Assembly: GCA_024638465.1 (NCBI GenBank)
Contig: JAHEKF010000005.1
Span: 1 to 64,000 of the forward strand
DNA length: 64,000 bases
Direction of reading: 5' to 3'
Origin: Rhodospirillaceae bacterium
GTDB taxonomy: Bacteria > Pseudomonadota > Gammaproteobacteria > Steroidobacterales > Rariloculaceae
Shown here: piece after piece, positions 24,135-58,278 of the stretch
Layout of the letters: every line of letters begins with the position of its first letter
Position numbering within the stretch: the stretch's first letter is position 1
Notes under the pieces: generated by a model
Databases searched by the model: none
What the model was told of the DNA's origin: nothing
Seen by the model: only the letters and a program-made list of their open reading frames with translations
Program-made: the position numbers and the translations under genes

Positions 24135-27100
24135 CTAGTTTTCGAGCTGCCCGTAATCCATGATCAGATCCGCGATTCCATCGCGGACAGCGATAGCGCG
24201 CTGTTCAGTCTCAGCGATCGCTGCGAGCTGGTTTTCGAATGCGCGAAGCCGGGTCAGTATCGAGCTCAGTTCGGATTCCGACAATTCGTAGTTTCCCTGC
24301 CGGGTCCTCTGCAACTTCTCCTGCAAATAAGCCTCGACGTAGCGGCCGGACTCTACAAAGGCTTCATCGTCCGCGAGCGTTGCCGCGGATGCGGCTCTCA
24401 GTACATACAGATCCAGTTCGGGGCGCACGACGAGAACTCGATCGACAAGACGCAAAGCGTCATTGGCGTACTCTGGTCGATTGGCGACTTTGTTGCGCCA
24501 GTCAGCGCGAAGTTTCACGGCGGCCGGGTACCAAAGGTCCGTTACGCGGCTGCGACCGAGCACCTGGTCGAGATCGGCCAGGGCCTGCCAGTCTTGCTCG
24601 GCGCCGAGGGGCCATGCTTCGACGACTGCTGCGGGAGCGCCTTCCAGTTCTCCGGCGAGCGCCAGGGCTTCGGCGGACGGACTTCGTCTTGCGAAAGATG
24701 GCAATTCGGCGCTCACTAGTTTGTAGCGCGCCTGAACATTGCCCGGGTCATAGCTCAGCGCGACACGGAGTGCCTCGTTCATGCTGGCGAGGTTGCCGTT
24801 GTATTCAAATCCGATCGCGGCGACCAGCGCCTGAGTTGACGGATTCGAAATCACCTCGGAAAGCCGGCTCGCACGAGTCACTTGTCCTTCCGCGAGCAAC
24901 CGTTGTGCCAGATACGCGAAGTTCAGGTCATCGCCAAAATCCCGGTGGATCCAGCCGGCGGGATCGAGCAACGGATCCAGCGGCTCGAAAAGCTCTGTCA
25001 GTTGCTCGCTTCGGAGTCCGTCGCCGCGGCTGCGGCTGCGCGTCGCCATGAGATTGCGATCGTCGGTTGTCAGTGGTGCGCCATCCGCAAACCGTCTTAC
25101 GCCTTCTTCGTCCAGCATAAGGGCTACCAGAAAATCCTCGACGCCGTTAAGCCCCATATAGCTATAGTGAAGTACGTCATCGGCCAGTGGCTGGCCGGAA
25201 AGCGAGATTTGCCTTTCTATTTCGAGCGGCAATTCCGAAGCCAGGAAATAAAGGACAGTTCCGTCCAGACCGTAGACGCGTACATTCGCGAAAGCCGAGA
25301 GTAACGTCGCCGCAAGACTCCGCAGCAACTCGGTGTCGACGAACTCGGCGTTCATCCACTGCAGAAAAACGCCACCATCGTTCAGTCGGCTCTTTGCGAG
25401 CTCGACGAATTCTTGCGTGAACAAATGCGATGCGCCCGCCGTCCATGGGTGCGAAGGCTGTGACACGATCGCGTCGTAGGTTTTACTGGTGAGCCGCAAC
25501 GCGTTTCGAGCGTCGTTGAAGATCACGGTGACACGCGGGTCCTGAAGCGGGTCGACTGCACGAAGCTCGGCGAGCTGCCGGTTGGCATTGAACACTTCGG
25601 GTTCGAGCTCCAAGACGTCGATCCGGTCCACCGAGCCTGGTACGCCTTCGAGCGCAACGCCGCCACCCAGGCCGATGACCAGCATGTCGCTGGTTCCCGG
25701 CCGTGCCGAGACGGGTAATCCGGCGAGCCAATGCTGAGTGTGACGAACCGGCGGCGCGCCTCGAACCAGAACCGACGCTTCCGGTAGTCCGTTGGTGCGC
25801 AGCTCGTAGGCCCCACCTGCTTCCGTCAACAGGACGGTCGATGAGCGTCCGACCGCAAAAAACAGCGGCTCGGTTTCGCCTCGGTCCAGTACCGGAAAAG
25901 CCGCGTTCGCGATCACGCTGTCAGGTCGTGTGGGCTGGTAGAACACCAAGACTGCCAACGCGGTCATGGCGGTTATTGAAGCCTGCGAGCGGTTCGGCAC
26001 AGGCACTACGAATACGGAAGCCAGTGCGAGCGCGAGGTTAATCATTACCGCCAGCTTCAGCGCGCCTTCGAATCCGAGCGCAGGAATGAGGTAGAAGCCT
26101 GCGCCCACGGCGCCGACGATCGCACCAACGGTATTCCATGCATAGACACGCGCAGTGGACGTACCGGCTGCTTCCGAAGTGTCGGTCATTATTCTGACCG
26201 CCAGCGGAAACGTCGCACCGATAAACAGCGTTGCCGGAAGCATGACCGCAACGGCGAACGCGGAGAGTGCCGCTGTCGAACGCGCGTCGGGTATAGCGAA
26301 GCCCATCCATTGGTAGACGGCTATGGAAAGAACCGCGATCGTGGCCTGAACGAGCGAGAAGCTTATTGCAGCGCGTTCCCTGTTTTTCGCCAGCGGGCCC
26401 GACAACGCGCCCCCGATCGCGATTCCGGTGAGAAAAGCGGCGAGCATCGTTGCGAAAGCGTAGATGCTCCCGCCCAGAACGTGCGCGAGCATCCGCGTCC
26501 AGAGGACCTCATAGATAAACGACGAAGCACCCGATGCCAGCATGATTGGCAAGATCCACGAGGGTTTGCGTCGAAACTCCGATCTTCGTTGCGGCGCAGT
26601 GCGCGCTTGATCGTGACGTCCTTCCGGTAGCGATCCCAGTCGCGTCGAAATCAGGGCGGCGATCGCGAACACGAGGCCGTTGATCGCGACGCCAACATAC
26701 AAGGTTGCCGTGAGCCCGAGCGACGGTAGCAGCAGGAATGCCGCGACCAGCGTTCCGGCGACCGCGCCTGCCGTATTCGTCGCGTACAACAGCGCGATCC
26801 GCGGTCCCACTTCGCCATCGGTGTGCACGACCTGACGCGTAAGCAGTGGCAGCGTGGCTCCCATAAATCCGGTTGGAAGCGCCAGAACCAGAAATCCGAC
26901 GACAAGATAGAACAGCGGCTGACCGAACGTGGCCGCGGAGGGCGGGGCCGCCCGGCCGCCGAGGATTCCCATGTAGACGGCGTCGGCTATCGCCAGCAGC
27001 AATGGAACCGCGAGCGCGGTTACGGCGATTCCTGCCTCCAGCAGACCGTAAACGCGAATGGGCCGGGTCACGCGGTCGATATAGCGCCCGGCGATGGCGG

Positions 27101-27308
27101 CGCCACCGGCGAGTCCTGCCATGTAGGCAGCGAGGACGGTCGCGACCGCCAGCTCGGAGGTGCCGAAGACGAGCGAGAATTGCCGAAGCCACGCCGTTTG
27201 GTAGAGCAATGCGGCGAAACCGGAAAGAACGAAGCAGGTAACGACGCCCGCCAGAATCCAGTTCGACCGCTCTGGCGAAACGCTGCTCGCGGAACTCGGG
27301 TCACTCAT
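24135..27308 (-). CDS. Fused MFS-type membrane / spermidine synthase-like protein with C-terminal helical domain
   Basis: A 1057-residue protein. Residues about 15-460 hold two sets of membrane helices of the fused MFS/spermidine synthase type (SGFAALLYQTAWLRQ and SSFIYEVLWTRMLAH repeats). Residues about 480-740 are a SAM-dependent aminopropyltransferase-like fold with GLGGG at 547-551, the acidic Glu568 and Asp599. The catalytic Asp stretch of spermidine synthase is replaced by SQPSHP (616-621), so true spermidine synthesis is unlikely. Residues 800-1057 look helical and TPR-like (SYDPGNVQARYKLV). The function is unknown. Transcription is divergent from the TonB receptor. Confidence 0.82.
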   Translation of the reverse strand: MSDPSSASSVSPERSNWILAGVVTCFVLSGFAALLYQTAWLRQFSLVFGTSELAVATVLAAYMAGLAGGAAIAGRYIDRVTRPIRVYGLLEAGIAVTALAVPLLLAIADAVYMGILGGRAAPPSAATFGQPLFYLVVGFLVLALPTGFMGATLPLLTRQVVHTDGEVGPRIALLYATNTAGAVAGTLVAAFLLLPSLGLTATLYVGVAINGLVFAIAALISTRLGSLPEGRHDQARTAPQRRSEFRRKPSWILPIMLASGASSFIYEVLWTRMLAHVLGGSIYAFATMLAAFLTGIAIGGALSGPLAKNRERAAISFSLVQATIAVLSIAVYQWMGFAIPDARSTAALSAFAVAVMLPATLFIGATFPLAVRIMTDTSEAAGTSTARVYAWNTVGAIVGAVGAGFYLIPALGFEGALKLAVMINLALALASVFVVPVPNRSQASITAMTALAVLVFYQPTRPDSVIANAAFPVLDRGETEPLFFAVGRSSTVLLTEAGGAYELRTNGLPEASVLVRGAPPVRHTQHWLAGLPVSARPGTSDMLVIGLGGGVALEGVPGSVDRIDVLELEPEVFNANRQLAELRAVDPLQDPRVTVIFNDARNALRLTSKTYDAIVSQPSHPWTAGASHLFTQEFVELAKSRLNDGGVFLQWMNAEFVDTELLRSLAATLLSAFANVRVYGLDGTVLYFLASELPLEIERQISLSGQPLADDVLHYSYMGLNGVEDFLVALMLDEEGVRRFADGAPLTTDDRNLMATRSRSRGDGLRSEQLTELFEPLDPLLDPAGWIHRDFGDDLNFAYLAQRLLAEGQVTRASRLSEVISNPSTQALVAAIGFEYNGNLASMNEALRVALSYDPGNVQARYKLVSAELPSFARRSPSAEALALAGELEGAPAAVVEAWPLGAEQDWQALADLDQVLGRSRVTDLWYPAAVKLRADWRNKVANRPEYANDALRLVDRVLVVRPELDLYVLRAASAATLADDEAFVESGRYVEAYLQEKLQRTRQGNYELSESELSSILTRLRAFENQLAAIAETEQRAIAVRDGIADLIMDYGQLEN

Positions 27309-30041: not shown

Positions 30042-30830
30042 CTAGCGTAGCTCGATTGAGCTGAGTTGCTTCTCGATACGGTCGCGACAGGCGATCAACG
30101 CTTCGACGAGTCCGGATTCGTTACCGTAGAAACGCGTCGACGGTACCGCGACGGATATTCCGAGGTGGCTATCGTAAGGATCGGTAACCAGCGCGCCCAC
30201 AGCGCAGATGCCGAGCGATTGTTCTTCGAGATCGTACGCGACGCCGTGTTCCCGAACTCGATCGAGTTCTGCTCGCAATTGTTCTTCGGAAGTAATTGTG
30301 TTCTTCGTCAAAGGCTCCATATCGAGATTCGATAAGACACGTTCCAGCGCGGTGGGTTCGAGTCCTGCGAGGAGAGCCTTGCCGTTCGCGCAGCAGTGCA
30401 GAGGGAACGATACACCCATGCCGGAGATGGCTCGAAGTCGTCGTTCTTCCGATGTTGCCTGATCGATAAATACAGCGACGCTGCCATCTCTGATCGACAG
30501 GTCGACCGTTTCTTTCAGGTGGTCGGATAGCCATCGCAGATGAGGGCGAATGACGTCGTGGAAATGACTCCGCGCGGCCGATCCAAGCGATACGAGGCCG
30601 GGGCCAAGCCGCACGCCGCGCCCGGATTCGCCCGAGGCCAGGAGTCGCTCCGCAGCCAGCGCGCCGACGATACGCTGTACCGTCGACCGCGGCAGTCCGA
30701 CCGCTGCCGAAATTTCACCGAGGCTCAAGGGCTTGCCGCGCCTCTCGAGCAACCGCAGGATCGTTGCGGCGCGTTCGATAACCTGAATTCCGCCGCCGGA
30801 CGGCGTAGCGTTTGTGTTCCTGCGCGCCAT
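30042..30830 (-). CDS. IclR family transcriptional regulator
   Basis: A 262-residue regulator with an N-terminal winged helix-turn-helix (about 16-75; LSLGEISAAVGLPRSTVQRIVGAL region) and a C-terminal IclR effector domain (about 85-250), including LHCCANGKALLAG and SLGICAVGALV. IclR proteins often sense aromatic acids, glyoxylate or sugar acids. It is divergent from the SSS/transhydroxylase-like operon, with 92 bp between the start codons, the classic layout for control of that operon. The half-site at 30865-30877 in this gap is shared with the TonB receptor promoter. Confidence 0.92.
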   Translation of the reverse strand: MARRNTNATPSGGGIQVIERAATILRLLERRGKPLSLGEISAAVGLPRSTVQRIVGALAAERLLASGESGRGVRLGPGLVSLGSAARSHFHDVIRPHLRWLSDHLKETVDLSIRDGSVAVFIDQATSEERRLRAISGMGVSFPLHCCANGKALLAGLEPTALERVLSNLDMEPLTKNTITSEEQLRAELDRVREHGVAYDLEEQSLGICAVGALVTDPYDSHLGISVAVPSTRFYGNESGLVEALIACRDRIEKQLSSIELR

Positions 30831-30922: not shown

Positions 30923-32404
30923 GTGAACGCTGGAATTCTGATTGCCGTTCTCGTCTACGAGATCGCCATCATACTCGGTGTCGGATTGTGGCTCGCCAGG
31001 CGCGAGGCTGCGCGGCCGCACGGAGAAGGAGACTTTGCGCTTGCCGGGCGCGATCTTCCGGTGCCCGTCGTCGCGATCACACTGGCGCTGACGGTTCTGG
31101 GTACGGCACACATCCTCGGGATCTTCGAGCTGGCATGGTTCCTCGGTGCCGCAGCCGTCTGGTTCAGCCTGGCGCATGTCATCCTGCTCGTTCTTGTCTG
31201 CCTCTCGACCGGACTCTGGGTGCGTCGGCTCGGATTGACGACGGTCCCGGAGATACTCGACCGGCTATACGGCGAGAAAACGCGGTTGCTCGTGTCCTGC
31301 ACGATGGCCGGTGTCGTGTTCGGCATCCTGACGATCGAAACGCAAGGCATAGGTATCGTCATTTCGTCGATGACGGGATGGGAGATCCGCAACGGCGCGA
31401 TCGTCGGCGGGATACTCGGAATCTTCTATGTGGTGCTGGCCGGCATGAAGGAAATCGGCTGGCTGAATCTCGTCAACGCCATCGTGATGTATCTGGGTTT
31501 GATACTCGCCACGATCTTCCTTGCGCTCCGGTTGCCGGGCGGGAACTACGACAGCGTGGCGGAGTTCTATACGTCCAGCGGCGACGATTTCATGCTGAGT
31601 ATCTACGGTACGCCCGAGATCTTCCTGACTTTCGCCCTGGGCGTAACCATTGCGGTCGTTTTCAGTCAGGGCATCAATCAGATGCTGATGCAGCCTGCGA
31701 TGTCGGCGGCAAGCGAACAGACGGTCCGCAGAAGCCTTTGGATTGCGGCACCGCTTAACGGCATGTTCGGCGTGTTCGCCGTCGTAATCGGCTTAACTGC
31801 GAAGACTATTCCCGAGTTCGCTGAGCTCGGCCCGAAGGTTGCGGCAACGACGATGCTCGTGAACTACCTGCCGCCATGGCTGGCCGCGCTGCTGCTGGCG
31901 TCGTTCCTGGCCGCAATACTGTCGACGTTCGCGATGACGAGTCTCGCGCCTGCGACGATTCTTGGTATGGACATCTACAAGAATCTCTATCGGCCCGACG
32001 CGACGGAAGACGAGATGGCGAGCTTCCTTCGTAAAACCATCATCGTGCTTGCTGTCGTCGCGATGAGTATCGCGGCGTTTTTGCCGCCCATCCTCGCGGC
32101 CATGGAATGGTTGTTTTCGTGGCTCGTTCCGGTCTTCTGGGTCATCGTGTTCGGGCTCTTCTGGAAACGCAACAGTACCGTTGCCGTACTCACCCTGGTC
32201 GCGGCGTGGGTCGCGAATTCACTCTGGTCGTTCAGTGCGCTTCCGGAGTTGCTCGGCATGGGCAGTGTCACGAATCCCTATGTCACGCTGACGGTTACCC
32301 TGAGCATCGGGATTGTCGGGAATCTGCTGTCGGAAGGCAGGGACGGTTACTTCAGGTCGAGCGAGTACAGGTCGCTGATGGCGACTCAAGGCGAGGCGGG
32401 CTGA
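30923..32404 (+). CDS. Sodium:solute symporter (SSS family)
   Basis: A 493-residue transporter with about 13 helices. GTG 30923 is chosen because GAGGGAGG lies 3-10 nt upstream. Family landmarks include the first core helix (TVLGTAHILGIFELAWFLG), GVVFGILTIETQGIGIVIS and LAALLLASFLAAILSTFAMTSLAP, where Ser/Thr of the eighth helix help form the sodium site. It would import an organic solute with sodium. It is the first gene of the operon encoding the molybdoenzyme, so it probably brings in that enzyme's substrate. The stop is 4 bp before the next small gene. Confidence 0.92.
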   Translation: MNAGILIAVLVYEIAIILGVGLWLARREAARPHGEGDFALAGRDLPVPVVAITLALTVLGTAHILGIFELAWFLGAAAVWFSLAHVILLVLVCLSTGLWVRRLGLTTVPEILDRLYGEKTRLLVSCTMAGVVFGILTIETQGIGIVISSMTGWEIRNGAIVGGILGIFYVVLAGMKEIGWLNLVNAIVMYLGLILATIFLALRLPGGNYDSVAEFYTSSGDDFMLSIYGTPEIFLTFALGVTIAVVFSQGINQMLMQPAMSAASEQTVRRSLWIAAPLNGMFGVFAVVIGLTAKTIPEFAELGPKVAATTMLVNYLPPWLAALLLASFLAAILSTFAMTSLAPATILGMDIYKNLYRPDATEDEMASFLRKTIIVLAVVAMSIAAFLPPILAAMEWLFSWLVPVFWVIVFGLFWKRNSTVAVLTLVAAWVANSLWSFSALPELLGMGSVTNPYVTLTVTLSIGIVGNLLSEGRDGYFRSSEYRSLMATQGEAG

Positions 32405-32408
32405 CACC

Positions 32409-32537
32409 ATGTTCTGGAAGATCTTTTTCGACAGCCTGCTGCTCATTGCCGTGGTCCTTGCGGCAGGCTGGGTCGTAGCGAGTCTGGTGGCGCGAGCCCG
32501 GCGATCCGCGGATGGCGACGAGAATAAGCGGGGGTAG
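32409..32537 (+). CDS. 42-residue single-helix membrane protein
   Basis: A small ATG frame 4 bp after the SSS stop encodes one hydrophobic helix (about residues 5-28, FFDSLLLIAVVLAAGWVVAS) followed by a basic, charged tail (RARRSADGDENKRG). This fits an inner-membrane protein with a cytoplasmic C-terminus. Tight spacing to both neighbours argues for a real gene. I do not recognise a family. Possible roles are a small SSS subunit or an assembly anchor for the molybdoenzyme. Confidence 0.6.
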   Translation: MFWKIFFDSLLLIAVVLAAGWVVASLVARARRSADGDENKRG

Positions 32538-32539
32538 TT

Positions 32540-32665
32540 GTGGAAGAGATCGTAGTTACGCGGTTGTGGATGGCTGGTGTCGTCACAGCGATGGTCATCT
32601 TCGGCGTCGCGGCTTTCGTCGGCTACCGCCGGCGCGAGAAGCTGAATAGTCAGAGTAAGGACTAG
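32540..32665 (+). CDS. 41-residue single-helix membrane protein
   Basis: A GTG frame 2 bp after the previous stop, with the CGGGGG of the preceding codons as a possible Shine-Dalgarno. It encodes one membrane helix (about residues 9-29, LWMAGVVTAMVIFGVAAFVG) and a basic tail YRRREKLNSQSKD. It is the same size class as its neighbour but different in sequence. Both lie between the SSS symporter and molybdoenzyme genes with almost no spacing. Function unknown. Confidence 0.55.
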   Translation: MEEIVVTRLWMAGVVTAMVIFGVAAFVGYRRREKLNSQSKD

Positions 32666-32668
32666 CCA

Positions 32669-32686
32669 ATGAGTTCGCTTTTATGA
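32669..32686 (+). promoter_or_regulatory. Five-codon leader frame overlapping the molybdoenzyme start
   Basis: ATG-AGT-TCG-CTT-TTA-TGA starts 9 nt after AAGGA, better placed than any site before ATG 32683. Its TGA (32684-32686) overlaps the ATG of the large gene as ATGA. Ribosomes finishing the leader could restart on the molybdoenzyme, giving translational coupling. A sequencing indel is an alternative. Confidence 0.35.
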
Positions 32687-35649
32687 GAGTCGCTATTCTG
32701 TTTTACGGCATCGCGCTGGCCCTGCGACTGACCGCCAGGTTCTACCCTGAATTCCGGGCGCGGCTCAAGGAACGCGACCTGACGGTGCAGATGAAACTTC
32801 AGGACGAGTCCATCAAGCGCTACTTCGTACTGCGAGGCGGGCGTATCCGGACGCGAGCGGCTGTCCACCCGAATCCCGATGTCACGCTGTTCTTCAAGAA
32901 CACGCGCGTTGCGCTGAATGTGCTGATGCCGCCACAGGACTACGGGGAAATGGTTCATGCCGGCAAGACGTTTCAGATGGGCGTGCAGGGCAAGGACGAT
33001 CTGCTGGTCTGGTGGATGCAGACGCTGAACAGGATGCTCGGCGCCCGCTGGAAGTTCGGCATCGAGCTTGACGATGGCGAGGTGCGCTACGTCAATAACA
33101 CCAATGGCGGTCCCGTCCACGTGTACGTAAAGGATGGCAGGATCGTTCGCATTACGCCGATCGACTTCGAGGACAAAGACGCAGCGTCCTGGGAGATCGA
33201 GGCGCGCGGCCGCAAGTTCTCGCCGCCGCGACGCGCAACCGTGACGTCGTATTCGCTCGCCTGGAAGTCGATGATCGAATCTAAGGATCGCAACCTCTAT
33301 CCGATGAAGCGTGTCGACTTCGATCCCGATGGTGAACGCAATCCACAGAATCGCGGTATTTCGGGCTACGAACGTATCAGCTGGGACGAAGCGCTGGATA
33401 TCGTAGCGAGCGAGTTCAAGCGCGTTAAGCGCGATTTCGGCCCGGGTGCTATCGCAGTAAGCCACGGCTCACACCACAACTGGGGCAACGTCGGTTATTA
33501 CCTGAGTTCGATGATTCGATTCTTCAACGGAATCGGCTTCACGCGCGTCATCCACAACCCGGACAGCTGGGAAGGCTGGTACTGGGGCGGTGTCCATCAC
33601 TACGGCTACAGCATGCGTCTCGGTAATCCCGAGCCGTTCGGTCAGGTCGAGGACTGCCTCAACAATGCCGAGATGATCGTGTTCTGGTCGAGCGACCCCG
33701 AGGCGACGAACGGGCTCTACGCAGGGTACGAAGGCACTATTCGTCGGCTCTGGGCGAAAGAACTCGGTATCAAGATGGTGCATATCGATCCGCACTGGAA
33801 TCACTCGGCCGCTTTCTACGGCGGCAAGTGGATAGCACCTCGTCCCGGCACGGACCCTGCGCTCGCCCAGGCGCTCTGCTATGTCTGGATCGACGAAGAT
33901 CTCTACGACAAGGAATTTGTCGAGAAACGGACAACGGGATTCGACGAGTGGGCGGCGCATGTCATGGGCCGCGAAGACGGCACGCCAAAGACGCCGGAGT
34001 GGGCCGAGCAGGAAACAGGTGTGCCGGCGCGAGAGATTCGCGCGCTCGCGCGCGAGTGGGGCAGGAAGCGCACCTACCTCGGTGCCGGCGGACTCGGCGG
34101 CGGTTTCGGCGGTGCCTGCCGTACTGCGACGGGTGCTCAATGGGCGCGAATGATGATCATCCTCATGGCAATGCAGGGGATCGGCAGGCCGGGCGTCAAC
34201 TTCGGCAATCTGCAGCAGGGCGCGCCGCTGGATTACACCTTCTGGTTCCCGGGTTATGCGGAAGGCGGTATTTCAGGCGATCTGACATTCACGGGCTCGG
34301 CGCTGATTACCTATCCGCGCATGCCGCATGTCATGAGCATGAATCCCGTCAAGCAGGCGATTCCGAGAATCCAGTTACCCGAGGCCATTCTCGACGGCGA
34401 GGCCGAAGGTTATTTCACCGATCCAACGTCCATGACGGGCCAGTTCCTGTCGTTCAAATATCCGGCGCCGGGACACTCGAAGATTCAGATTCTCTATAAG
34501 TATGGCGGCGCGTCGTTAGGGACCATGAACAATACGAACCGCTGGGTTCGGATGTACCAATCGGACAAGTTGCCGTTCGTTGTCAGTCAGTCGATCTGGT
34601 TCGAGGGTGAGACGAAATTCGCGGACGTCATTCTTCCGGCGTGTACCAACTTCGAACGCTGGGACATCGGTGAGTGGACCTCGGCCGGCGGGTACGGCCA
34701 CCAGTTCTATAACCAGGTCAATCACCGCGTCGTTACGTTACAGGCCAAATGTATCGAGCCGCTCGGTGAGTCGAAGTCCGATTACCAGATCTTCTCCGAG
34801 CTCGCGCAACGTATGGGGCTTGGCCTTTACTTTACGGAAGGCTGTAGCGAGATCGACTGGGTCAAGCGTGTCTTCGACGCTTCGGATGTGTCGCAACTGA
34901 TTTCCTGGAAGGAATTCCAGCGAAAAGGCTACTACGTCATTCCGGCTGATGCCCCCAAAGCACGTGCGCCGACGGCGTTCAAGTGGTTCAACGAGGGCCG
35001 CAAGAAGGATGTGCCGGAGCCGCATCCACTTCCCGGTGATTACGGTGATGAGTACCTCGAGGGATTGCAGACGCAGTCCGGCAAGATAGAGTTTATTCCG
35101 GAGACGCTAAAGAACTTCGAGGATCCGGAGCGGCCGCCGTTGAATCGCTATATGCCGAGCTGGGAAGGTACGCAATCCGCGAACCTGATCGACAAATATC
35201 CGATTCAGCTGGTGTCTTCGCATGCCCGCTACAGCTTCCACACCCTCGGCGATGGCAAGAACAGCGTCATAAACGACATCCACGATCACCGAACACTGAT
35301 AGACGGCCACTACTACTGGATAGCACGAGTCAATCCGCGCGATGCTGACGCGCGGAAAATTCGAGACAACGATTTGATTCGGCTCTATAACGATCGCGGA
35401 TCCGTCATCTGCGCTGCCCGGCTGACGGAGCGGATACGACCCGGCGTCGTCCATGCTTGCGAATCCTCGGCCGTTTACGACCCCGTCGGTCAGCCGGGCA
35501 AATCAGCCGACCGCGGCGGCTGTGTCAATCAACTGACGAATCATCGTTCGCAGTCGAAGAAATCCTCGTCAATGGCACCGAACGCCTGCCTGATCGAGGT
35601 CGAGCGATGGCAGAACGCAGAATCCGAGCCTGCCGAGGACGTCGCGTGA
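32683..35649 (+). CDS. Pyrogallol hydroxytransferase (transhydroxylase)-like molybdoenzyme large subunit with N-terminal SCP2-like domain
   Basis: A 988-residue molybdopterin oxidoreductase of the DMSO reductase superfamily. From residue about 132 onward it aligns, with few gaps at first, to AthL, the large subunit of pyrogallol-phloroglucinol transhydroxylase. The AthL catalytic residues His144, Asp174 and Tyr404 and the Mo ligand Ser175 (positions from memory) correspond to His264 (SHHNWGN), Asp294-Ser295 (NPDSWEGW) and Tyr525 (FPGYAEGG). No N-terminal FeS motif and no Tat signal is present, also as in AthL. Residues about 25-118 are extra and SCP2-like (LTVQMKLQDE, PDVTLFF, FQMGVQGKDDLL). 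The substrate may be a polyhydroxylated ring; the exact one is not known. Its stop overlaps the FeS subunit start. Confidence 0.9.
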   Translation: MRVAILFYGIALALRLTARFYPEFRARLKERDLTVQMKLQDESIKRYFVLRGGRIRTRAAVHPNPDVTLFFKNTRVALNVLMPPQDYGEMVHAGKTFQMGVQGKDDLLVWWMQTLNRMLGARWKFGIELDDGEVRYVNNTNGGPVHVYVKDGRIVRITPIDFEDKDAASWEIEARGRKFSPPRRATVTSYSLAWKSMIESKDRNLYPMKRVDFDPDGERNPQNRGISGYERISWDEALDIVASEFKRVKRDFGPGAIAVSHGSHHNWGNVGYYLSSMIRFFNGIGFTRVIHNPDSWEGWYWGGVHHYGYSMRLGNPEPFGQVEDCLNNAEMIVFWSSDPEATNGLYAGYEGTIRRLWAKELGIKMVHIDPHWNHSAAFYGGKWIAPRPGTDPALAQALCYVWIDEDLYDKEFVEKRTTGFDEWAAHVMGREDGTPKTPEWAEQETGVPAREIRALAREWGRKRTYLGAGGLGGGFGGACRTATGAQWARMMIILMAMQGIGRPGVNFGNLQQGAPLDYTFWFPGYAEGGISGDLTFTGSALITYPRMPHVMSMNPVKQAIPRIQLPEAILDGEAEGYFTDPTSMTGQFLSFKYPAPGHSKIQILYKYGGASLGTMNNTNRWVRMYQSDKLPFVVSQSIWFEGETKFADVILPACTNFERWDIGEWTSAGGYGHQFYNQVNHRVVTLQAKCIEPLGESKSDYQIFSELAQRMGLGLYFTEGCSEIDWVKRVFDASDVSQLISWKEFQRKGYYVIPADAPKARAPTAFKWFNEGRKKDVPEPHPLPGDYGDEYLEGLQTQSGKIEFIPETLKNFEDPERPPLNRYMPSWEGTQSANLIDKYPIQLVSSHARYSFHTLGDGKNSVINDIHDHRTLIDGHYYWIARVNPRDADARKIRDNDLIRLYNDRGSVICAARLTERIRPGVVHACESSAVYDPVGQPGKSADRGGCVNQLTNHRSQSKKSSSMAPNACLIEVERWQNAESEPAEDVA

Positions 35650-36482
35650 AAAAGTGGAACATGATTGTCGACGTCGCTCGCTGTAACAACTGTTACAACT
35701 GCTTTGTAGCGACGAAAGACGAATACGTGGGCAACGAGTATCCGGGATACACGGCACCACAACCGCTGCACGGTCATGCGTGGGTCGATATCGAGCGTAC
35801 CGAATCGGGTCAGTGGCCGATGGTGGAAGCGGCGTTTCGACCCGTGATGTGTAATCACTGCGACGATGCGCCCTGCATCAAAGCGGCGAAAAACGACGCC
35901 GTCAAACAACGTTACGACGGAATCGTGATCATCGATCCCGAGCTCGCAAAAGGCCAGAAGCAGATCGTCGATGCCTGCCCCTATGGTGCGGTCTACTGGA
36001 ACGAGGAATTACAGCTCCCTCAGGCCTGGCCGTTCGACGCCCATTTGCTCGATCGCGGCTGGGATAAAACCAAGCTCGAGAAAGTTTGCCCGACCGATGT
36101 CTTCAGGTCCGTGAAAGTCAGCGACGAAGAAATGCAGCAGATCGCCGCTGACGAAGAGCTTTCGACGCTCGAGCCGCTGGACGGCGCCAGGCCGAAGGTC
36201 TATTACAAGAACTCACATCGCTTCGATACCGGCTTTATCGGCGGTACGATCGTCAGCGAAAAGGACGGAGTCGAAGATTGCGTCGAGGGAGTCAAGGTCG
36301 TGGCTCGAAGTAAGGACGGAGAGATCGGCCGCGCCGAATCAGATGCTTTTGGCGACTTCAAGATCGGCAAAATTCAAAAGAACCTGGGCGCGGTAACGCT
36401 GAACATCGAACACGAGTCGGGATCCCGATCTATCGATATCGACTTCGGCGAAAGCATCTACCTGGGTCCCGTGACGATCTAG
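35646..36482 (+). CDS. Transhydroxylase-like FeS small subunit lacking one [4Fe-4S] ligand set
   Basis: A 278-residue partner of the large subunit, beginning at GTG 35646 that overlaps the preceding TGA (GTGA). Length (AthS is about 274), order and the C-terminal beta-domain (PKVYYKN to the end) match AthS. Cys13, 16, 19 (CNNCYNC), Cys69, 72, 77 (CNHCDDAPC), Cys111 (CPYG) and Cys148 (VCPTD) remain. Four ligands expected from AthS are Thr23, Trp128, Asp131 and Leu144. By the DmsB/NrfC ligand pattern these four belong to one cluster, so two clusters should remain. It would shuttle electrons or prime the Mo site. Confidence 0.88.
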   Translation: MKKWNMIVDVARCNNCYNCFVATKDEYVGNEYPGYTAPQPLHGHAWVDIERTESGQWPMVEAAFRPVMCNHCDDAPCIKAAKNDAVKQRYDGIVIIDPELAKGQKQIVDACPYGAVYWNEELQLPQAWPFDAHLLDRGWDKTKLEKVCPTDVFRSVKVSDEEMQQIAADEELSTLEPLDGARPKVYYKNSHRFDTGFIGGTIVSEKDGVEDCVEGVKVVARSKDGEIGRAESDAFGDFKIGKIQKNLGAVTLNIEHESGSRSIDIDFGESIYLGPVTI

Positions 36483-36518
36483 CGCCAGGCGCCGATCTCC
36501 AGCGAGGTTAACCGGATC

Positions 36519-36902
36519 GTGTCAGCAGCGACATTCAACTTTGATCTGACCGATGCCGCGGTGATCCTGAGGTTGATCTGTGCGCTGTTTTTTTTGCCGC
36601 ATATCACCTTTAAAATAGTCGGTAGCCCACCCCCGGCGCTCGAGGTCTTTACGGTCGCCGGATTCAAACCACCGGCGTTGTTCATGAGGCTCGCGGTTGT
36701 TGTCGAGATCGTGGCGGGTTTGGGTCTGCTGCTGGGGATCTACACGCAATGGGCGGCTTTGGTTGCGGCGACCAGTCTCGCCGTCGCTGCAGGAGCGGTT
36801 TACAAGATCGAGCGCAAGTGGATGTGGAACCGCGGCGGAATGGAGTATTGCGTATTCTGGGCGATTACCTGCGTTGCCGTCGCGATGCTTCACTGGAACT
36901 GA
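36519..36902 (+). CDS. DoxX-family membrane protein
   Basis: A 127-residue protein with four predicted helices and the DoxX features LRLICALFFLPHITFKI and LVVVEIVAGLGLLLGIYTQW-type second and third helices. The GTG start at 36519 has GCGAGG about 11 nt upstream. DoxX proteins are linked to sulfur oxidation, quinone or redox homeostasis in different bacteria. Here the gene follows the FeS subunit by 36 bp, so it might connect the molybdoenzyme to the membrane quinone pool; that is inference. Confidence 0.75.
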   Translation: MSAATFNFDLTDAAVILRLICALFFLPHITFKIVGSPPPALEVFTVAGFKPPALFMRLAVVVEIVAGLGLLLGIYTQWAALVAATSLAVAAGAVYKIERKWMWNRGGMEYCVFWAITCVAVAMLHWN

Positions 36903-36956
36903 GGCGCACCTCGACCGTAACGAAATACAGGGCCTCGAGCCTTTCGGGAAAAATAA

Positions 36957-37982
36957 ATGATTAATGCAGCAATTGTAGGATTGGGCTGGTGGGGACAGAC
37001 CCTCGTCGAGGGCGTGTCGGACCAGAGCGACGCAATCCGTTTTACGGCCGGAGTTACGAGCCGGTCTTCGGACGAGGCGCGCGCATTCGCGAGCGCCCAC
37101 AACTTTTCCTTGCGTCCCAAATATGAAGACGTACTCAATGACCCGGATATCGACGCCGTCGTACTGGTTACTCCCAACTCACTGCATGCGGATCAGGTCG
37201 TCGCCGCGGCTCAGGCCGGAAAGCACGTTTTCTGCGAAAAGCCGTTGGCGCTGACGACCGCGGACGCTGAACGAGCCACCGTCGCGGCCGAGTCCGCGGG
37301 GACGGTTTTAAGTGTCGGCTATAATCGGCGCCTGCATCCCGAAATGGTCAGGCTGCGGAATCAGATCGATGCGGATGACCTCGGCGTGATTCTGCACGTC
37401 GAATCCACAATGACTTTTCCGAACGCACTGTATCTCAAAGCGGATCAGTGGCGGGCGAGTCGAGAGGAAGCCCCGGCGGGCGGCCTGATGCCGATGGGTG
37501 TCCATGCGGTGGATGGCATGATCGATCTCGTCGGATTCGTCGACGAGGTTTATTGCCAGAGTTTTCGTCGCGTGGTCGAGGTCGACGCGGATGACACGAC
37601 TTCGATACTGTTTCGCATGCGCGAGGGGATGTCGGCTTATCTCGGTACCATGACCGCAACCGGCGGCGCGTTCAGCTTTCAGGTTTTCGGCTCAAAGGGG
37701 TTCGTGAGGCTGGAGGGAAAAACGCACGAGGCGGGCGCATCTTCCGAGGAGCGCCGGACGGAACTCTTCGACAAGTGCATCTTCAAGCCGATCAAAGGCC
37801 CGGCTGAGGTCTGGACCGCCGAACCGTTCGACCTCACGCGCGCGGCGCTTGAGGCGTTCGCCGCCGCAGCGACAGGGGAGGCGCCGGCACCGATTCCAGC
37901 CGAGGAGCTCGTGCACGGCGTCGCGGTAACGGAAGCGATTATTAAATCCGCTGCCTCGCACCGTCCCGAGAAAGTCGAGTAA
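36957..37982 (+). CDS. Gfo/Idh/MocA family oxidoreductase (molybdoenzyme operon)
   Basis: A 341-residue NAD(P)-dependent oxidoreductase with VGLGWWGQTLV at the N-terminus and FCEKPLALT. It is closely related to the protein at 12.2 kb, with similar substrate-domain residues (RASREEAPAGGLMPMGVHAVD against the equivalent WRGSTEEAPAAGMTGMGVH stretch). It is the last gene of the 30.9-38.0 kb run and probably handles a cyclic polyol or keto compound connected with the molybdoenzyme reaction. A hairpin follows the stop. Confidence 0.87.
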   Translation: MINAAIVGLGWWGQTLVEGVSDQSDAIRFTAGVTSRSSDEARAFASAHNFSLRPKYEDVLNDPDIDAVVLVTPNSLHADQVVAAAQAGKHVFCEKPLALTTADAERATVAAESAGTVLSVGYNRRLHPEMVRLRNQIDADDLGVILHVESTMTFPNALYLKADQWRASREEAPAGGLMPMGVHAVDGMIDLVGFVDEVYCQSFRRVVEVDADDTTSILFRMREGMSAYLGTMTATGGAFSFQVFGSKGFVRLEGKTHEAGASSEERRTELFDKCIFKPIKGPAEVWTAEPFDLTRAALEAFAAAATGEAPAPIPAEELVHGVAVTEAIIKSAASHRPEKVE

Positions 37983-38047: not shown

Positions 38048-39331
38048 TTATTCCTGAGCCGCAGCGATGGGTTGGTCCGGCACCAGAATAAAAAGCGCGA
38101 GCGCCGACAAGCCCGCGAATACTGCGGCGAGTATCAGGGCGAAAGCAAAGCTGCCGGTGTATTGAACGATAAACCCGGTCGTGATCGGGGCCAGCGCGCC
38201 GCCGATGTAGCCGCCGAAATTGGTGATGCCGCCGAGTGATGCGGTGCGATTTGGCGGAGCGACCTCCGCAATTAGCGACCAGTTCATGCTCGTACAGCAG
38301 CCGTTGCAGAAAAGCGCGCCAGCGATACAGGCGACCGCGACGAACGTGCTGGCCGCGTAGGCGGCGCCCAACGTGAACAGCGCCATTCCGATGAGTGCCG
38401 AGATGTAAGTTCCTTTACGCACCGTGATTGGCGCATGGCCTGCGGCGAGCAGCCGGTCGGCGAGCCAGCCGCTCCCGATGCTGCCGAACACGCCGAAACC
38501 GAAAGGAATCGCAGCAACCCAGCCGGTCATGCGGACATCCAGACCACGCTGGATCTCCAGATAGCCGGGCAGCCAGGTCCCGAACAGCCACAACATATAG
38601 ATGGTTCCGAAGTAGCCGAGCACGAGCCCCCAGGTTGCACGATAGGCGAACAGGCGCCGCCATTCGGCGAAGCTCGGCTTCTCGACTTTGGCAGTTTCCT
38701 CACGCCCGAGTTCGGCCAGTTCCTGCGCCGTGAGATCTACTTCGCCGGGATCACGATAAAGCGCGTACCAGAGCGCTGCGAGCACGAGACCGACGCCGCC
38801 AAGAAACACGAACATCGCGCGCCAGCCGAACGCCAGCATCAGCGCCGTCAGTATCGGCGGCGCCAGCGTCGGTCCCAGTGTGGAAACGCAGTTCCAGGTG
38901 CCGGTTACCAGCGCCCGGTTGCGGATCGGATACCACTTGCGCGTCACCGACGCGGCGCAAGGGAACATCGGCGCTTCGCCAAGTCCGAGCCCTGCCCGCG
39001 CGATGGCGAATTGCCAGAGGTTGGTGACGAAACCGGCAGCGCCCTGTGCGATCGACCAGAATGCCAGCGCGCCACCCAGCAATCTCCGCGCACCGAGGCG
39101 GTCGACCAATGCACCGCCCGGCAGTTGCGCGAACGCATACGCCCAGAGAAATGCTGACAATAACAAGCCCATCTGCGCGATCGAGAGGCCGAGTTCTTCC
39201 CGAATCAACGGATTGGCGATCGCAAGTGCGCTGCGGTCGAAATAGTTCAGGGTGCCCGCGGCCACTAGAAGAACAAGCGTGGATCTCTGGGTTCGCTTGA
39301 GTCGCGGCGTGCTCGATGTCGAATCAACCAT
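38048..39331 (-). CDS. MFS transporter, sugar-acid/anion:cation symporter type
   Basis: A 427-residue, 12-helix major facilitator protein. ATG 39331 is used; a TTG two codons upstream is also possible. Landmarks are FDRSALAIANPLI in helix 1, the loop 2-3 motif GALVDRLGARR, and RAGLGLGEAPMFPCAASVTRKWYP in helix 4, as in the ACS family that includes glucarate and hexuronate transporters. It is the last gene of the sugar-acid operon read from 47.7 kb, and its likely role is import of that acid. Confidence 0.88.
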   Translation of the reverse strand: MVDSTSSTPRLKRTQRSTLVLLVAAGTLNYFDRSALAIANPLIREELGLSIAQMGLLLSAFLWAYAFAQLPGGALVDRLGARRLLGGALAFWSIAQGAAGFVTNLWQFAIARAGLGLGEAPMFPCAASVTRKWYPIRNRALVTGTWNCVSTLGPTLAPPILTALMLAFGWRAMFVFLGGVGLVLAALWYALYRDPGEVDLTAQELAELGREETAKVEKPSFAEWRRLFAYRATWGLVLGYFGTIYMLWLFGTWLPGYLEIQRGLDVRMTGWVAAIPFGFGVFGSIGSGWLADRLLAAGHAPITVRKGTYISALIGMALFTLGAAYAASTFVAVACIAGALFCNGCCTSMNWSLIAEVAPPNRTASLGGITNFGGYIGGALAPITTGFIVQYTGSFAFALILAAVFAGLSALALFILVPDQPIAAAQE

Positions 39332-39372
39332 GCTCAATGCGCCGCCCCCGAGTTAACGCCGGGAAATTTATT

Positions 39373-40428
39373 TCACCCATCGGCGCAAGCCGCTTCGACG
39401 ATCGCCGTATCGATTCCGCATACAGCCGCGGTCTCCGTAACCTGGCGCCACGTGGTTTCGTCCACTCGCAGCTCCGATCGGTCGCTGGCTCTGCGCTGCG
39501 AACGCTCTCCCGGAATGCGTACGTTTTCGCCAGGCTCCGAGGGGCGCGAAGACTTCACGAACTCGATATAGCGACGAATCTCGTCCGCGATTCGATCGTC
39601 CGAGTCGAGACGATCCGGATCGATATAGATTCCGAGCATGCCCTGTTCCAATCGGGTTTTACCCTCGGAGCTGCAGCCGCCGCCGGCGATCGCTCCGGCG
39701 AGCAGCTCGACAACCAGCCCGAGGCCGAAACCCTTGTGCCCGCCGAGCGGCAGTATCGCCCCGCGTGGCGGGCCGTAGAATTCATTCGGATCGTTGGTCG
39801 GATTGCCATCCGCATCGAGAATCAGGCCGTCCGCAACCGTTTCGCCCGCGTTGCGAGCGACCTGAAGTCTGCCTTCCGCTACCGCGGCTGTGGAGACATC
39901 AACGATCAACGGCGTTCCCCCGGGTACCGGGATACCAACGGAGATCGGGTTGACGGAGAGACGCGGGTCGCGCCCGCCGGCCGGCACCACGAACATGCCG
40001 AAGCCAGTGGAGTTGACGAAATGCAGTCCTATGAGGTTCGCTGCGGCAGCCATCTCCGACCAGTGACCGACCCGCCCGAGATGGCCGCAGTTGCGAAGGC
40101 CGACGACGGCCATCCCCTGTTTCCGGCATTTCTCGATGCCGACATCGACCGCTCGCTTGCCGAGCCATTGGCCGAAACCGAGCTGGCCGTCGGCCACGGT
40201 CATGGTTTCGGTATCGATGAGAATCTTAAGATCGCGATTTGGCAGAACCTTGCCCTGCCTGAACCATTCGATGTATGTCGGAATCCGAATCAGTCCGTGT
40301 GAGTCGTAACCGGCCAGGTTCGCGATAATCAGGTGGTCGGCAATGCATTCGGCTTCCTCGTCACCGCAACCAATGCTCGCGAAGATTGCGGCAACCAGCT
40401 GTTCAAGAGGCTCCGGTTTCAGTTTCAT
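39373..40428 (-). CDS. Malate/L-lactate/ureidoglycolate dehydrogenase family protein (Ldh2)
   Basis: A 351-residue NAD(P)-dependent dehydrogenase of the LDH2/MDH2 family, distinct from Rossmann LDHs. The ATG at 40428 gives the family start MKLKPEPLEQLVAAIF; longer in-frame options are unsupported Arg-rich sequence. Hallmarks are YDSHGLIRIP, RNCGHLGRVGHW and LGGHKGFGLGLVVELL. It would oxidise a 2-hydroxy acid or reduce a 2-oxo acid, and in this operon may act on a sugar acid. A Cys-containing loop (AGGGCSSEG) is near the end. Confidence 0.87.
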   Translation of the reverse strand: MKLKPEPLEQLVAAIFASIGCGDEEAECIADHLIIANLAGYDSHGLIRIPTYIEWFRQGKVLPNRDLKILIDTETMTVADGQLGFGQWLGKRAVDVGIEKCRKQGMAVVGLRNCGHLGRVGHWSEMAAAANLIGLHFVNSTGFGMFVVPAGGRDPRLSVNPISVGIPVPGGTPLIVDVSTAAVAEGRLQVARNAGETVADGLILDADGNPTNDPNEFYGPPRGAILPLGGHKGFGLGLVVELLAGAIAGGGCSSEGKTRLEQGMLGIYIDPDRLDSDDRIADEIRRYIEFVKSSRPSEPGENVRIPGERSQRRASDRSELRVDETTWRQVTETAAVCGIDTAIVEAACADG

Positions 40429-40457
40429 GAATTCGTTTCCGCGCGAGCACAGGTGCG

Positions 40458-41369
40458 CTAGCGCCCCCACTCCAGCGCTATTGGCGCGAGGTCTGAAGCC
40501 AGCGCCAACAATTCCGCGCGCGTTGCGGGATGCAGTGGCGACAGCGGATGCCTGACGGCATCGCTTGCAATGACGCCGCCCTCTTTCATCACGGTCTTGG
40601 TCGCGCGCAAACCGCACTGACGATTCTCGAAATTGATCAGCGGCAGTATCCGGGCGTATTGAGCATTTGCGTCTTCCATCTCGTGGTTTCGGTGGCTTTC
40701 GAGAACCGGCCTGATCAGATCCGGTAGCAACGCGCTCGGCATCGTGCCGGTAGCGCCTGCGTTCAGGTCGGCGAGTAGCGTTATCGCTTCTTCGCCGTCG
40801 AATGGACCCTCGATGGCATCGCCGCCTGTCTCGATGAGACTGCGCAATTTCGCCGCCGCCATCGGCGTTTCGATTTTGAAGTAGGAGGCCAGCGGTATTT
40901 CTTTTGCGAGGCGAGCCAGCAAGGGCACCGACAGCTCGACGCCGCTGAGTGGCGCATCCTGCACTATGACGGGAACGCCGCCCGACTCGGCAACGGCGGA
41001 GAAATGCTCGATCAGTTGAGCCTCGCCAGCGCGCAGGGTCGCGCCATGATAAGGCGGCATGAGCATCAGCATCGCCGCGCCGGCTGCAGCGGCGCGCCGT
41101 GCGCGTTCGGCTGCGACCTGGGTGGAGAAATGACTGCAGGTAACGATCATCGGAACGCGCCCCGCGACATGGCGCATGCACAGCTCCAACAGGATATCGC
41201 GTTCTTCGTCAGTCAGAAGAAACTGCTCCGAGTAGTTCGCCAGAATGCAGATGCCATCCACGCCCTGATCGATCATGCAGTCGAGCACGCGCTTCTGACC
41301 CTCGAGATCGAGTGCGCCGCTGTCGTCGAATGGCGTGGGGGCGATCGGAAATACGCCGGCGTAAGTCAT
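40458..41369 (-). CDS. DapA-family lyase, likely keto-deoxy sugar acid dehydratase
   Basis: A 303-residue TIM-barrel aldolase/dehydratase. The ATG at 41369 gives the family N-terminus MTYAGVFPIAPTPFDD. The Schiff-base Lys is Lys165 in SYFKIETP, and Tyr107 (PPYHG) is the usual proton-relay Tyr. Next to a UxaA/GarD-type dehydratase and an aldehyde dehydrogenase it is best read as a 5-keto-4-deoxyglucarate or 2-keto-3-deoxy-acid dehydratase giving 2-oxoglutarate semialdehyde. Authentic lysine-biosynthesis DapA is less likely from context. Confidence 0.85.
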   Translation of the reverse strand: MTYAGVFPIAPTPFDDSGALDLEGQKRVLDCMIDQGVDGICILANYSEQFLLTDEERDILLELCMRHVAGRVPMIVTCSHFSTQVAAERARRAAAAGAAMLMLMPPYHGATLRAGEAQLIEHFSAVAESGGVPVIVQDAPLSGVELSVPLLARLAKEIPLASYFKIETPMAAAKLRSLIETGGDAIEGPFDGEEAITLLADLNAGATGTMPSALLPDLIRPVLESHRNHEMEDANAQYARILPLINFENRQCGLRATKTVMKEGGVIASDAVRHPLSPLHPATRAELLALASDLAPIALEWGR

Positions 41370-41388
41370 GGTCTTGCAGCGCTCCCCG

Positions 41389-42819
41389 CTATGGTGCGAT
41401 GTAGGCAGTCTTGACGACGGTATAGAACTCGGCCGCATAGCTGCCTTGTTCGCGTGGACCGTAACTCGAATGTTTTCGGCCGCCGAAGGGAACGTGATAA
41501 TCGACGCCTGCGGTGGGCAGATTCACCATGACCATTCCGGCCTGGGACTTGCGGCGGAATATCGAAGCGGCTTTAAGGCTGTTCGTGCAGATTCCGGCAC
41601 TCAAACCGAAGTCGGTGTCATTGGCGACACGCAATGCCTCATCGAAGTCCCTGACCTTGATGATGGACGCGAACGGGCCGAATATTTCTTCGCGACTGAC
41701 GCGCATGTCGTTGCTTGCGCCGAGGAACACCGCGGGCGCCTGATAGTGTCCCGGATGCTCGCGCTCCAGCAATTCGCCGCCGACAACTTCGCAGCCTTCT
41801 TCTCTTGCCAGCTCGAGATAAGACACGTTCTGATTCAGCTGGTTCTTATCGACCACCGGGCCGATCTGAGTTTCGGGATCGAGCGCATCGCCGACTCGCA
41901 GGGAATTCGTTGCTGCCAGCAGTTTCTCGACGAACGCGTCGTGGATCTTCTCCGTTACGATCAGTCGTGACGACGCGGTACAGCGTTGACCGGTCGAGAA
42001 GAACGCGCCATTGACGCTCACCGACACGGCCGTGTCCAGGTCGGCGTCGTCGAGAATGACCATCGGATTCTTGCCGCCCATCTCGAGCTGGACCTTCTTC
42101 TGTGTCTCCGCGCACTTGACCGCGAGCGCCTGTCCGGTGGTGACCGAGCCCGTGAAAGAGACCGCGTGGATGCCGGGGTGCTCTACGATTCTTGCGCCGA
42201 CGCTCGATCCCGGACCGATCACCAGATTCAGCAGGCCTTTCGGAAGCCCGGCTTCGTCAAGGATCCTCGCGAGCTCCCAGGCGCAGCCCGGCACGAGCTC
42301 TGCCGGTTTGAAGATGACGGCGTTGCCGTAGCACAGTGCGGGCGCGATCTTCCAGGCCGGGATCGCGATCGGAAAGTTCCACGGCGTGATAATGCCGATG
42401 ACACCGAGCGCCTCGCGAGTGATCTCGACTTCGACACCGGGGCGAACCGAGTCGATTTTCTCTCCGCGCTGGCGCAGACACTCACCCGCGAAAAAACGGA
42501 AAACCTGCGCTGCACGAACCGTCTCGCCAATGCCCTCGGCCAGGGTTTTGCCTTCCTCGCGACTCAGTAACCGCCCGAGTTCCTCTTTACGAGCCATGAT
42601 CGCCGTTCCTGCGGCATCCAACACATCGTGGCGCACCTGCGGGCTTGCCTCTGCCCAGGCCGGTTGAGCGGCTTGCGCCGCCGCGACTGCGGTATCGACG
42701 GCGTTCGCATCGGCGCGAGCGTATTCGCCGACCACGTCGTCGGTATTGGAGGGATTGACGTTCAGCATCACGTCCGGGCTCTCGACCCATTCGCCGCCGA
42801 TCAGATTTGCATGCATCAT
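41389..42819 (-). CDS. Aldehyde dehydrogenase, likely 2-oxoglutarate semialdehyde dehydrogenase
   Basis: A 476-residue NAD(P)-dependent aldehyde dehydrogenase. Catalytic residues are Asn148 (PWNFP), Glu246 (LEMGGKNP) and Cys280 (GQRCTASSR). The start is MMHANLIGGEW at 42819; extending further would overlap the upstream dehydratase. In the operon it lies between the UxaA/GarD-type and DapA-type genes, the arrangement expected for the last oxidation to 2-oxoglutarate. Succinate-semialdehyde dehydrogenase is an alternative reading. Confidence 0.9.
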   Translation of the reverse strand: MMHANLIGGEWVESPDVMLNVNPSNTDDVVGEYARADANAVDTAVAAAQAAQPAWAEASPQVRHDVLDAAGTAIMARKEELGRLLSREEGKTLAEGIGETVRAAQVFRFFAGECLRQRGEKIDSVRPGVEVEITREALGVIGIITPWNFPIAIPAWKIAPALCYGNAVIFKPAELVPGCAWELARILDEAGLPKGLLNLVIGPGSSVGARIVEHPGIHAVSFTGSVTTGQALAVKCAETQKKVQLEMGGKNPMVILDDADLDTAVSVSVNGAFFSTGQRCTASSRLIVTEKIHDAFVEKLLAATNSLRVGDALDPETQIGPVVDKNQLNQNVSYLELAREEGCEVVGGELLEREHPGHYQAPAVFLGASNDMRVSREEIFGPFASIIKVRDFDEALRVANDTDFGLSAGICTNSLKAASIFRRKSQAGMVMVNLPTAGVDYHVPFGGRKHSSYGPREQGSYAAEFYTVVKTAYIAP

Positions 42820-42835
42820 AAATACAGATTCCGTC

Positions 42836-44518: not shown

Positions 44519-44527
44519 CGAGGTGCC

Positions 44528-45523: not shown

Positions 45524-45525
45524 GT

Positions 45526-51391: not shown

Positions 51392-51519
51392 ATTCGAGAT
51401 TGACCCCGGGGGAATCACGGCGCAAACTTGCGGGAACTAAACGTTGACGTTTTTACAACAACCATGGCGAAGCGGCCGTTCGATAGCGGCGATTGCCAGG
51501 ACAGAAAGGGGACTACTCC

Positions 51520-53775: not shown

Positions 53776-53789
53776 GAATCCGGCAGGCA

Positions 53790-53831: not shown

Positions 53832-53920
53832 AGTGGGCTTCGCCGAAGATGTTCGCTTAGTCAATCGCTCTACGGCAGGCGCATCCGCCTCCGCCTCAGA
53901 CCAACTATTCGGAGAAGATA

Positions 53921-57227: not shown

Positions 57228-57242
57228 CTTAGGGTGACATCC

Positions 57243-58259: not shown

Positions 58260-58278
58260 TTCGGAGAGGACAAACAGG

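Follow-up and report, generated by a model that had tools for sequence, protein, structure and literature searches.

The transhydroxylase-like locus and its host genome

The window analysed here, a 64,000-nt stretch (positions 1 to 64,000 of contig JAHEKF010000005.1, assembly GCA_024638465.1, Rhodospirillaceae bacterium, GTDB family Rariloculaceae), carries adjacent genes for the large and small subunits of a molybdoenzyme related to pyrogallol-phloroglucinol transhydroxylase (AthLS), an enzyme known from strict anaerobes that shifts hydroxyl groups around aromatic rings. The large subunit has an additional N-terminal domain modelled as a sterol-carrier-like (SCP2) fold, and the small subunit lacks the ligands predicted to hold one of its three iron-sulfur clusters (FS1 to FS3). 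The pair lies within a run of seven forward genes (30923–37982), separated by gaps of 4, 2, 17, -4, 36 and 54 nt, so short that the genes very probably form a single transcript, and a regulator gene is divergently oriented next to them. The genes and the features discussed below are:

30042–30830, minus strand: IclR-family regulator, divergent from the operon (Pfam IclR_C, 2.6e-42, and HTH_IclR)
30923–32404, plus strand: SSS-family sodium:solute symporter (Pfam SSF, 4e-36)
32409–32537, plus strand: micro-protein 1, 42 aa, single apparent membrane segment (homologous 40-aa open reading frame at the same place in relative L021)
32540–32665, plus strand: micro-protein 2, 41 aa, single apparent membrane segment (homologous 43-aa open reading frame at the same place in L021)
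32683–35649, plus strand: large (molybdenum) subunit, AthL-like, 988 aa (1037 bits to 4v4c_A, catalytic residues, tree)
32683–33042, plus strand: SCP2-like N-terminal domain, predicted, large-subunit residues 1–120 (AlphaFold model, Foldseek, weak Pfam SCP2 matches in homologues)
33472–33474, 33562–33564, 33565–33567 and 34255–34257, plus strand: large-subunit catalytic codons for H264, D294, S295 and Y525
35646–36482, plus strand: small (Fe-S) subunit, AthS-like, 278 aa (221 bits to 4v4c_B; FS1 and FS3 ligands kept)
35712–35714, 36027–36029, 36036–36038 and 36075–36077, plus strand: replacements at the FS2 positions of the small subunit, T23, W128, D131 and L144
36519–36902, plus strand: DoxX-family membrane protein (Pfam DoxX, 4.3e-13)
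36957–37982, plus strand: Gfo/Idh/MocA-family NAD(P)-dependent oxidoreductase (Pfam, 1.2e-27)

All of these genes are present and in the order given by the first-pass annotation, which did not recognise the set as a described one; no description was met in the literature searched. For the two micro-proteins there was no family match above the curated cut-off, and no known accessory family fits them. The host, a marine bacterium (3.26 Mb in 153 contigs, estimated 88% complete), encodes three heme-copper oxidase subunits, making the aerobic background suspected from the window alone likely; anaerobic growth is also possible.

A transhydroxylase-type core with an additional domain

Over residues 134–978 the large subunit aligns from end to end with Pelobacter acidigallici AthL (4v4c_A), scoring 1037 bits, the next-best solved relatives being dimethyl sulfoxide (DMSO) reductases (251 bits), with acetylene hydratase at 63 bits, and Pfam AhtL-like_1st is matched with E=1e-28. 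AthL His144, Asp174, Ser175 and Tyr404 align with His264, Asp294, Ser295 (the Mo ligand) and Tyr525, bearing out the assignment made from the sequence at first reading, and these residues are conserved in 107, 107, 107 and 106, respectively, of 110 aligned sequences, the few exceptions consisting largely of gaps and of the DMSO reductase outgroup. Likeness to AthLS (PDB 4v4c-e) extends to the adjacent small-subunit gene, whose product matches AthS (4v4c_B) with 221 bits and gives an AlphaFold (AF2) model (predicted local distance difference test score, pLDDT, 97) that superposes on 4v4c_B, including the C-terminal beta domain, with a template modelling (TM) score of 0.93. No signal peptide is apparent on reading either subunit sequence, consistent with the cytoplasmic AthL.

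Three AthL residues that we take to line the substrate pocket, Arg153, Trp354 and Cys557, correspond to Tyr273, Phe475 and Ala668 here, and Tyr152 and Tyr560 are kept. The position of Arg153 is occupied by Trp in other members of the SCP2-bearing clade and by Lys in a third clade without the N-terminal domain. The chemistry is likely to be of the same kind as that of AthL and the substrate likely to be different, and these three changes make pyrogallol itself a doubtful one.

Residues 1–133 have no counterpart in AthL, and an N-terminal region of this kind is present in all 95 distinct N-terminal sequences extracted from homologous loci. A Pfam search did not detect SCP2 in this region of the window protein, and Pfam and PDB profile searches with it gave weak or chance matches, so the fold was modelled instead; among homologues, 20 of 82 have a weak Pfam SCP2 match. 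All 40 best Foldseek matches of the AF2 model (mean pLDDT 91) are SCP2-fold or SCP2-domain-containing proteins, with TM scores up to about 0.6–0.7, and include UbiJ, SCP-2L and the C-terminal domain of the alkylsulfatases Pisa1 and SdsA1. According to the model, residues 1–120 are an SCP2 fold, a lipid-carrier-like domain fused to a transhydroxylase-type molybdoenzyme. The SCP2-fold proteins returned by Foldseek, unlike the window protein, have no molybdoenzyme attached, and no description of such a fusion was found in the literature searched, which mostly left out subscription papers.

Predicted loss of the FS2 cluster

The standard ferredoxin pairing rule assigns the twelve ligand Cys of AthS to FS1 (Cys13, 16, 19 and 149), FS2 (Cys23, 126, 129 and 145) and FS3 (Cys68, 71, 76 and 109). 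Eight of the twelve are kept in the window small subunit, the FS2 positions being occupied by Thr23, Trp128, Asp131 and Leu144. Of 80 homologous loci (the top-ranking ones among >590 matches to the window protein, hence not an even sample), all have a complete FS3, 75 a complete FS1 (the other five have a single Ser substitution) and 26 a complete FS2, the remaining 54 having Trp and Asp at the two middle FS2 positions. This middle pair is two-state (Cys/Cys or Trp/Asp, with zero intermediates), and the outer two positions vary freely in the Trp/Asp form. The variable set is exactly one predicted cluster of the three, expected by chance in about 3 of the 495 ways of choosing four positions from twelve. 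Judged from its ligands, FS2, one [4Fe-4S] cluster, is lost in this branch, and the Trp/Asp pair has the look of a fixed substitution filling the cluster space, not of random decay. Without FS2 the distance between FS1 and FS3 should be too great for efficient electron transfer, so there should be no continuous electron path from the Mo side to FS3. The first-pass annotation had recognised the AthL-like core, and had overlooked both the N-terminal domain and the missing Fe-S ligands.

All four FS2 Cys are kept in homologues from Desulfobacterota (except locus L096), Chloroflexota, Bacillota, Acidobacteriota, Actinomycetota and those labelled Myxococcota, and the FS2-keeping homologues are, judged by record titles, mostly from anaerobes or sediment metagenome-assembled genomes (MAGs). 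Of the 47 rows labelled Pseudomonadota, 45 carry the Trp/Asp form, and one of the remaining two lacks the SCP2 domain; the seven rows that belong to the window's order all have Trp/Asp. Four plasmid homologues from cultured bacteria (Burkholderia stagnalis, Ensifer canadensis, Salipiger abyssi and Paraburkholderia) have it as well.

The state of the small subunit bears most directly on the main rival explanation, a phenol hydroxylase of the resorcinol hydroxylase (RhL) type that would add a water-derived hydroxyl and send two electrons out via FS1 to an external acceptor or a membrane partner, e.g. DoxX. RhL works in anaerobic respiration, with electrons having to leave the enzyme, and an RhLS-type enzyme would be expected to have an intact electron chain, whereas the window small subunit has no FS2 ligands, a loss that should break the FS1-FS2-FS3 wire. 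FS1 is kept, and the operon does contain a DoxX gene, although none was found beside the gene pair in relatives. RhL of Azoarcus anaerobius and alpha-resorcylate hydroxylase of Thauera aromatica AR-1 are relatives by description only; the literature groups RhL with transhydroxylase (RhL/PgtL group) in the Ser-ligated DMSO reductase superfamily (PMC10100899). On balance we regard this explanation as rather unlikely, and it is the one to be taken most seriously.

Phylogeny and distribution of the subfamily

IQ-TREE analysis of the large-subunit core alone united the SCP2-bearing sequences, without exception, in a single clade (48 rows; Shimodaira-Hasegawa-like approximate likelihood ratio test, 99). 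Its sister group consists of AthL and a Desulfofustis relative (support 100), and another clade without the N-terminal domain lies outside; one change suffices to explain presence and absence of the domain, i.e. it was gained once on the tree. A FastTree topology from 106 rows agrees. The window protein is nearest to a protein of an Arenicellaceae MAG (L021; 77–78% identity over the whole length) and one of a Sphingobium-labelled MAG (L022), and has the features of the SCP2-bearing subfamily: an N-terminal SCP2 fold (predicted), an AthL-like core and an adjoining AthS-like gene. A tree of this kind, with AthL and DMSO reductase relatives, had been proposed as a check; it supports the relationship to AthL and places the protein outside the AthL clade proper, in the SCP2-bearing sister clade. 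Together with the changed pocket residues, this placement speaks against the earlier identification as pyrogallol-phloroglucinol transhydroxylase itself. The window pair differs from AthLS in its SCP2-like domain, in Tyr273, Phe475 and Ala668, in the lost FS2 ligands, in its operon with an SSS importer and in belonging to a genome with heme-copper oxidases.

The same tree position bears on a reductive dehydroxylase or other phenol/quinone reductase, with electrons fed through the small subunit. Such an enzyme would fit the DMSO reductase superfamily, and the catechol dehydroxylases of Eggerthella and Gordonibacter are likewise bis-molybdopterin guanine dinucleotide (bis-MGD) enzymes acting on phenolic rings, but they are reductive and form a separate clade near acetylene hydratase, away from AthL (PMC7028382), whereas the window protein is in the sister group of AthL. 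An affinity to them is not borne out by the scores (1037 bits for AthL vs 63 for acetylene hydratase), although the tree contained no dehydroxylase sequence. With the electron wire apparently cut as well, we consider a reductase very unlikely.

One genome scan gave >590 matches to the window protein in the SCP2-bearing clade. The large-subunit gene is present in 7/7 and 8/8 of the genomes examined of two families of the window's own order, and a search with an AthL-type query turned up no strong match in 298 other Pseudomonadota genomes drawn at random. Such a distribution, together with neighbours that are transporters and catabolic genes, argues against a role in quinone biosynthesis, in which the SCP2 domain would hold a prenylated ring in the manner of UbiJ for O2-independent hydroxylation at the Mo site. 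UbiJ-SCP2 structures do rank among the best hits of the fold search, and we nevertheless find this explanation highly improbable. The subfamily is also found on the plasmids of cultured Burkholderia stagnalis, Ensifer canadensis, Salipiger abyssi and Paraburkholderia. An aerobic background remains likely for the host, but finding it is less surprising than the first-pass annotation suggested, since the subfamily is shared with cultured rhizobia, bacteria of the Burkholderia group and a marine roseobacter.

At one locus (L114; genome G093, contig 18) an AthL-like gene without the N-terminal domain and an SCP2-bearing gene lie back to back on opposite strands, and the contig also carries two further genes that are distant relatives (36%).

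Gene neighbourhoods in relatives

Of the relatives examined, only L021 has an SSS gene, both micro-proteins, the large and small subunits and an IclR gene; its importer is 81% identical and its importer gene immediately precedes those for the micro-proteins and the large subunit. Genes for IclR regulators, 46–48% identical, are found near the large-subunit gene in L021, L023, L024 and L048. In no relative examined did a DoxX or Gfo/Idh gene turn up next to the pair, so both may lie outside the core set. The gene order, which the first-pass annotation had suggested comparing between genomes, is therefore not conserved as a full set, L021 alone having most of it, and no universal partner apart from the small subunit was found across the whole family.

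In three cultured, aerobic relatives (Burkholderia stagnalis, Ensifer canadensis and Paraburkholderia) the pair occurs together with genes for TetR regulators, an FAH-family hydrolase, a VOC protein and outer-membrane proteins of the OmpW or FadL type; the operons of B. stagnalis and E. canadensis also include an annotated acyl-CoA synthetase gene. The VOC protein of B. stagnalis is similar to 3b59 and has a weak likeness to 2,3-dihydroxybiphenyl dioxygenase; it aligns with extradiol dioxygenases and, on reading of the sequence, has two His and one Glu at the expected extradiol metal-ligand positions. The OmpW/FadL porins of these relatives and the SCP2 domain suggest hydrophobic substrates. 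A two-domain VOC gene directly upstream of the large-subunit gene, on the same strand, in relatives from the same order (L105, L107, L109 and L110) was not called a dioxygenase, because a metal-binding His is not evident where one would usually stand in its product, which also has no PDB match.

In some anaerobes, e.g. L033, L048 and L067, cyclase-family, BKACE-family and SDR genes lie within 10 kb of the pair. In Clostridium scatologenes dihydrophloroglucinol cyclohydrolase belongs to the cyclase family and triacetate acetoacetate-lyase to the BKACE family (PMC10470551), a likeness to phloroglucinol-pathway genes at family level only. The genome of the window's host encodes, on other contigs, one BKACE protein and ten FAH-family proteins; no intradiol dioxygenase was found in it.

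Other genes of the window and the phlorotannin theme

Besides TonB receptors, the region contains one gene of the sulfatase family and one resembling arylsulfotransferases, and in L021 an arylsulfotransferase gene is located close to the operon. The use of polyphenols or phlorotannins had been proposed from the TonB receptors and the sulfatase; nothing ties these genes to the operon, and the phlorotannin link would at present be an unsupported extrapolation. The sulfatase-family protein (1158–2750) has Cys-Ser-Gln-Thr-Arg instead of the strict formylglycine motif CxPSR, making it uncertain whether the product is an active sulfatase.

These observations complete the case for and against a classical pyrogallol-phloroglucinol transhydroxylase serving the use of gallate, tannin or phlorotannin. 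The conserved catalytic set would fit it, as would the sulfatase, arylsulfotransferase-like and TonB-receptor genes within the window, but the enzyme has an additional domain, belongs to a different clade and differs in the presumed AthL pocket residues, the sulfatase lacks the strict motif, and the surroundings of the operon showed neither a tannase or gallate decarboxylase nor a complete phloroglucinol pathway, the one BKACE gene of the genome being on another contig. We judge it distinctly unlikely.

Elsewhere in the window, a likely sugar-acid catabolic operon on the minus strand (38048–47729), convergent with the molybdoenzyme operon, encodes a galactonate-type MFS transporter, Ldh_2, a DHDPS-family aldolase/dehydratase, an aldehyde dehydrogenase, members of the galactarate/altronate dehydratase and cyclase families, a protein with LVIVD repeats and an FCD-GntR regulator. 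A fused MFS/spermidine-synthase-like protein of 1057 aa is encoded at 24135–27308 (minus strand), and genes for three DUF6152 proteins (50065–51141, 57234–58259 and 58219–59334) flank those for two Amidohydro_3 amidohydrolases and a TonB receptor (51493–57227), a repeated pairing.

Proposed function and significance

The reading we favour, with a modest degree of confidence, is that the operon serves import and first processing of a phenolic compound by O2-independent, redox-neutral hydroxyl transfer on hydrophobic phenols, with the electron wire cut, in the service of aerobic catabolism. It builds on the family, clade and catalytic residues, the modelled SCP2 fold, the ligand loss, the heme-copper oxidases and the operon contexts of relatives; from these we infer the substrate, the direction, the role of the SCP2 domain and the redox-neutral chemistry. 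The SSS importer, perhaps with the two small membrane proteins, would move the substrate into the cytoplasm, where the SCP2 domain of the molybdenum subunit would hold its hydrophobic part. The bis-MGD Mo, held by Ser295, and His264, Asp294 and Tyr525 would then shift a hydroxyl on or between polyhydroxylated rings as in AthL, with no O2 and no net electron flow, the remaining clusters FS1 and FS3 being structural or merely setting the Mo redox state. The rearranged phenol would pass to aerobic catabolism by enzymes encoded elsewhere.

Several points weigh against this proposal. The window operon has no VOC, FAH or AMP-ligase genes, and no homologue of either VOC protein tested was found in the host genome. 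The grouping of Cys by cluster follows a pairing rule and is not taken from coordinates. The association of FS2 loss with aerobic life is suggestive and largely confounded with phylogeny, and it is not clean, because FS2 is lost in L096 (10001–13791), from a Desulfovibrio MAG, i.e. an anaerobe, and kept in L038 (4821–8596), from Burkholderiales. L096 is the deepest branch of the SCP2 clade, and its Trp/Asp replacement is apparently independent; L038 has a small subunit with all twelve Cys although its large subunit lies inside the FS2-less clade, which may mean that the small subunit retained or regained these ligands or that its gene was exchanged.

More tentatively, and with less conviction than for the window operon itself, we suggest that wire-less transhydroxylases with a lipid-binding-type domain are widespread and perform O2-independent, redox-neutral hydroxyl shifts on hydrophobic phenols within aerobic ring-cleavage pathways, replacing the usual oxygenase step. 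In this large subfamily the AthL-like core is of a known type; what appears to be new is the gain of the SCP2 domain and the loss of FS2. To our knowledge, a structure and detailed studies exist for one transhydroxylase alone, and it is, as far as we know, an open question why three Fe-S clusters are present in an enzyme without a net redox reaction. The homologues form a natural set in which the four ligands of one predicted cluster are replaced in a two-state manner with the catalytic residues fixed, and a comparison of FS2-bearing and FS2-less forms would directly test the need for an electron path. The presence of the subfamily in cultured rhizobia and a marine roseobacter, beside genes of ring-cleavage type, makes an O2-independent hydroxyl shift within aerobic catabolism testable.

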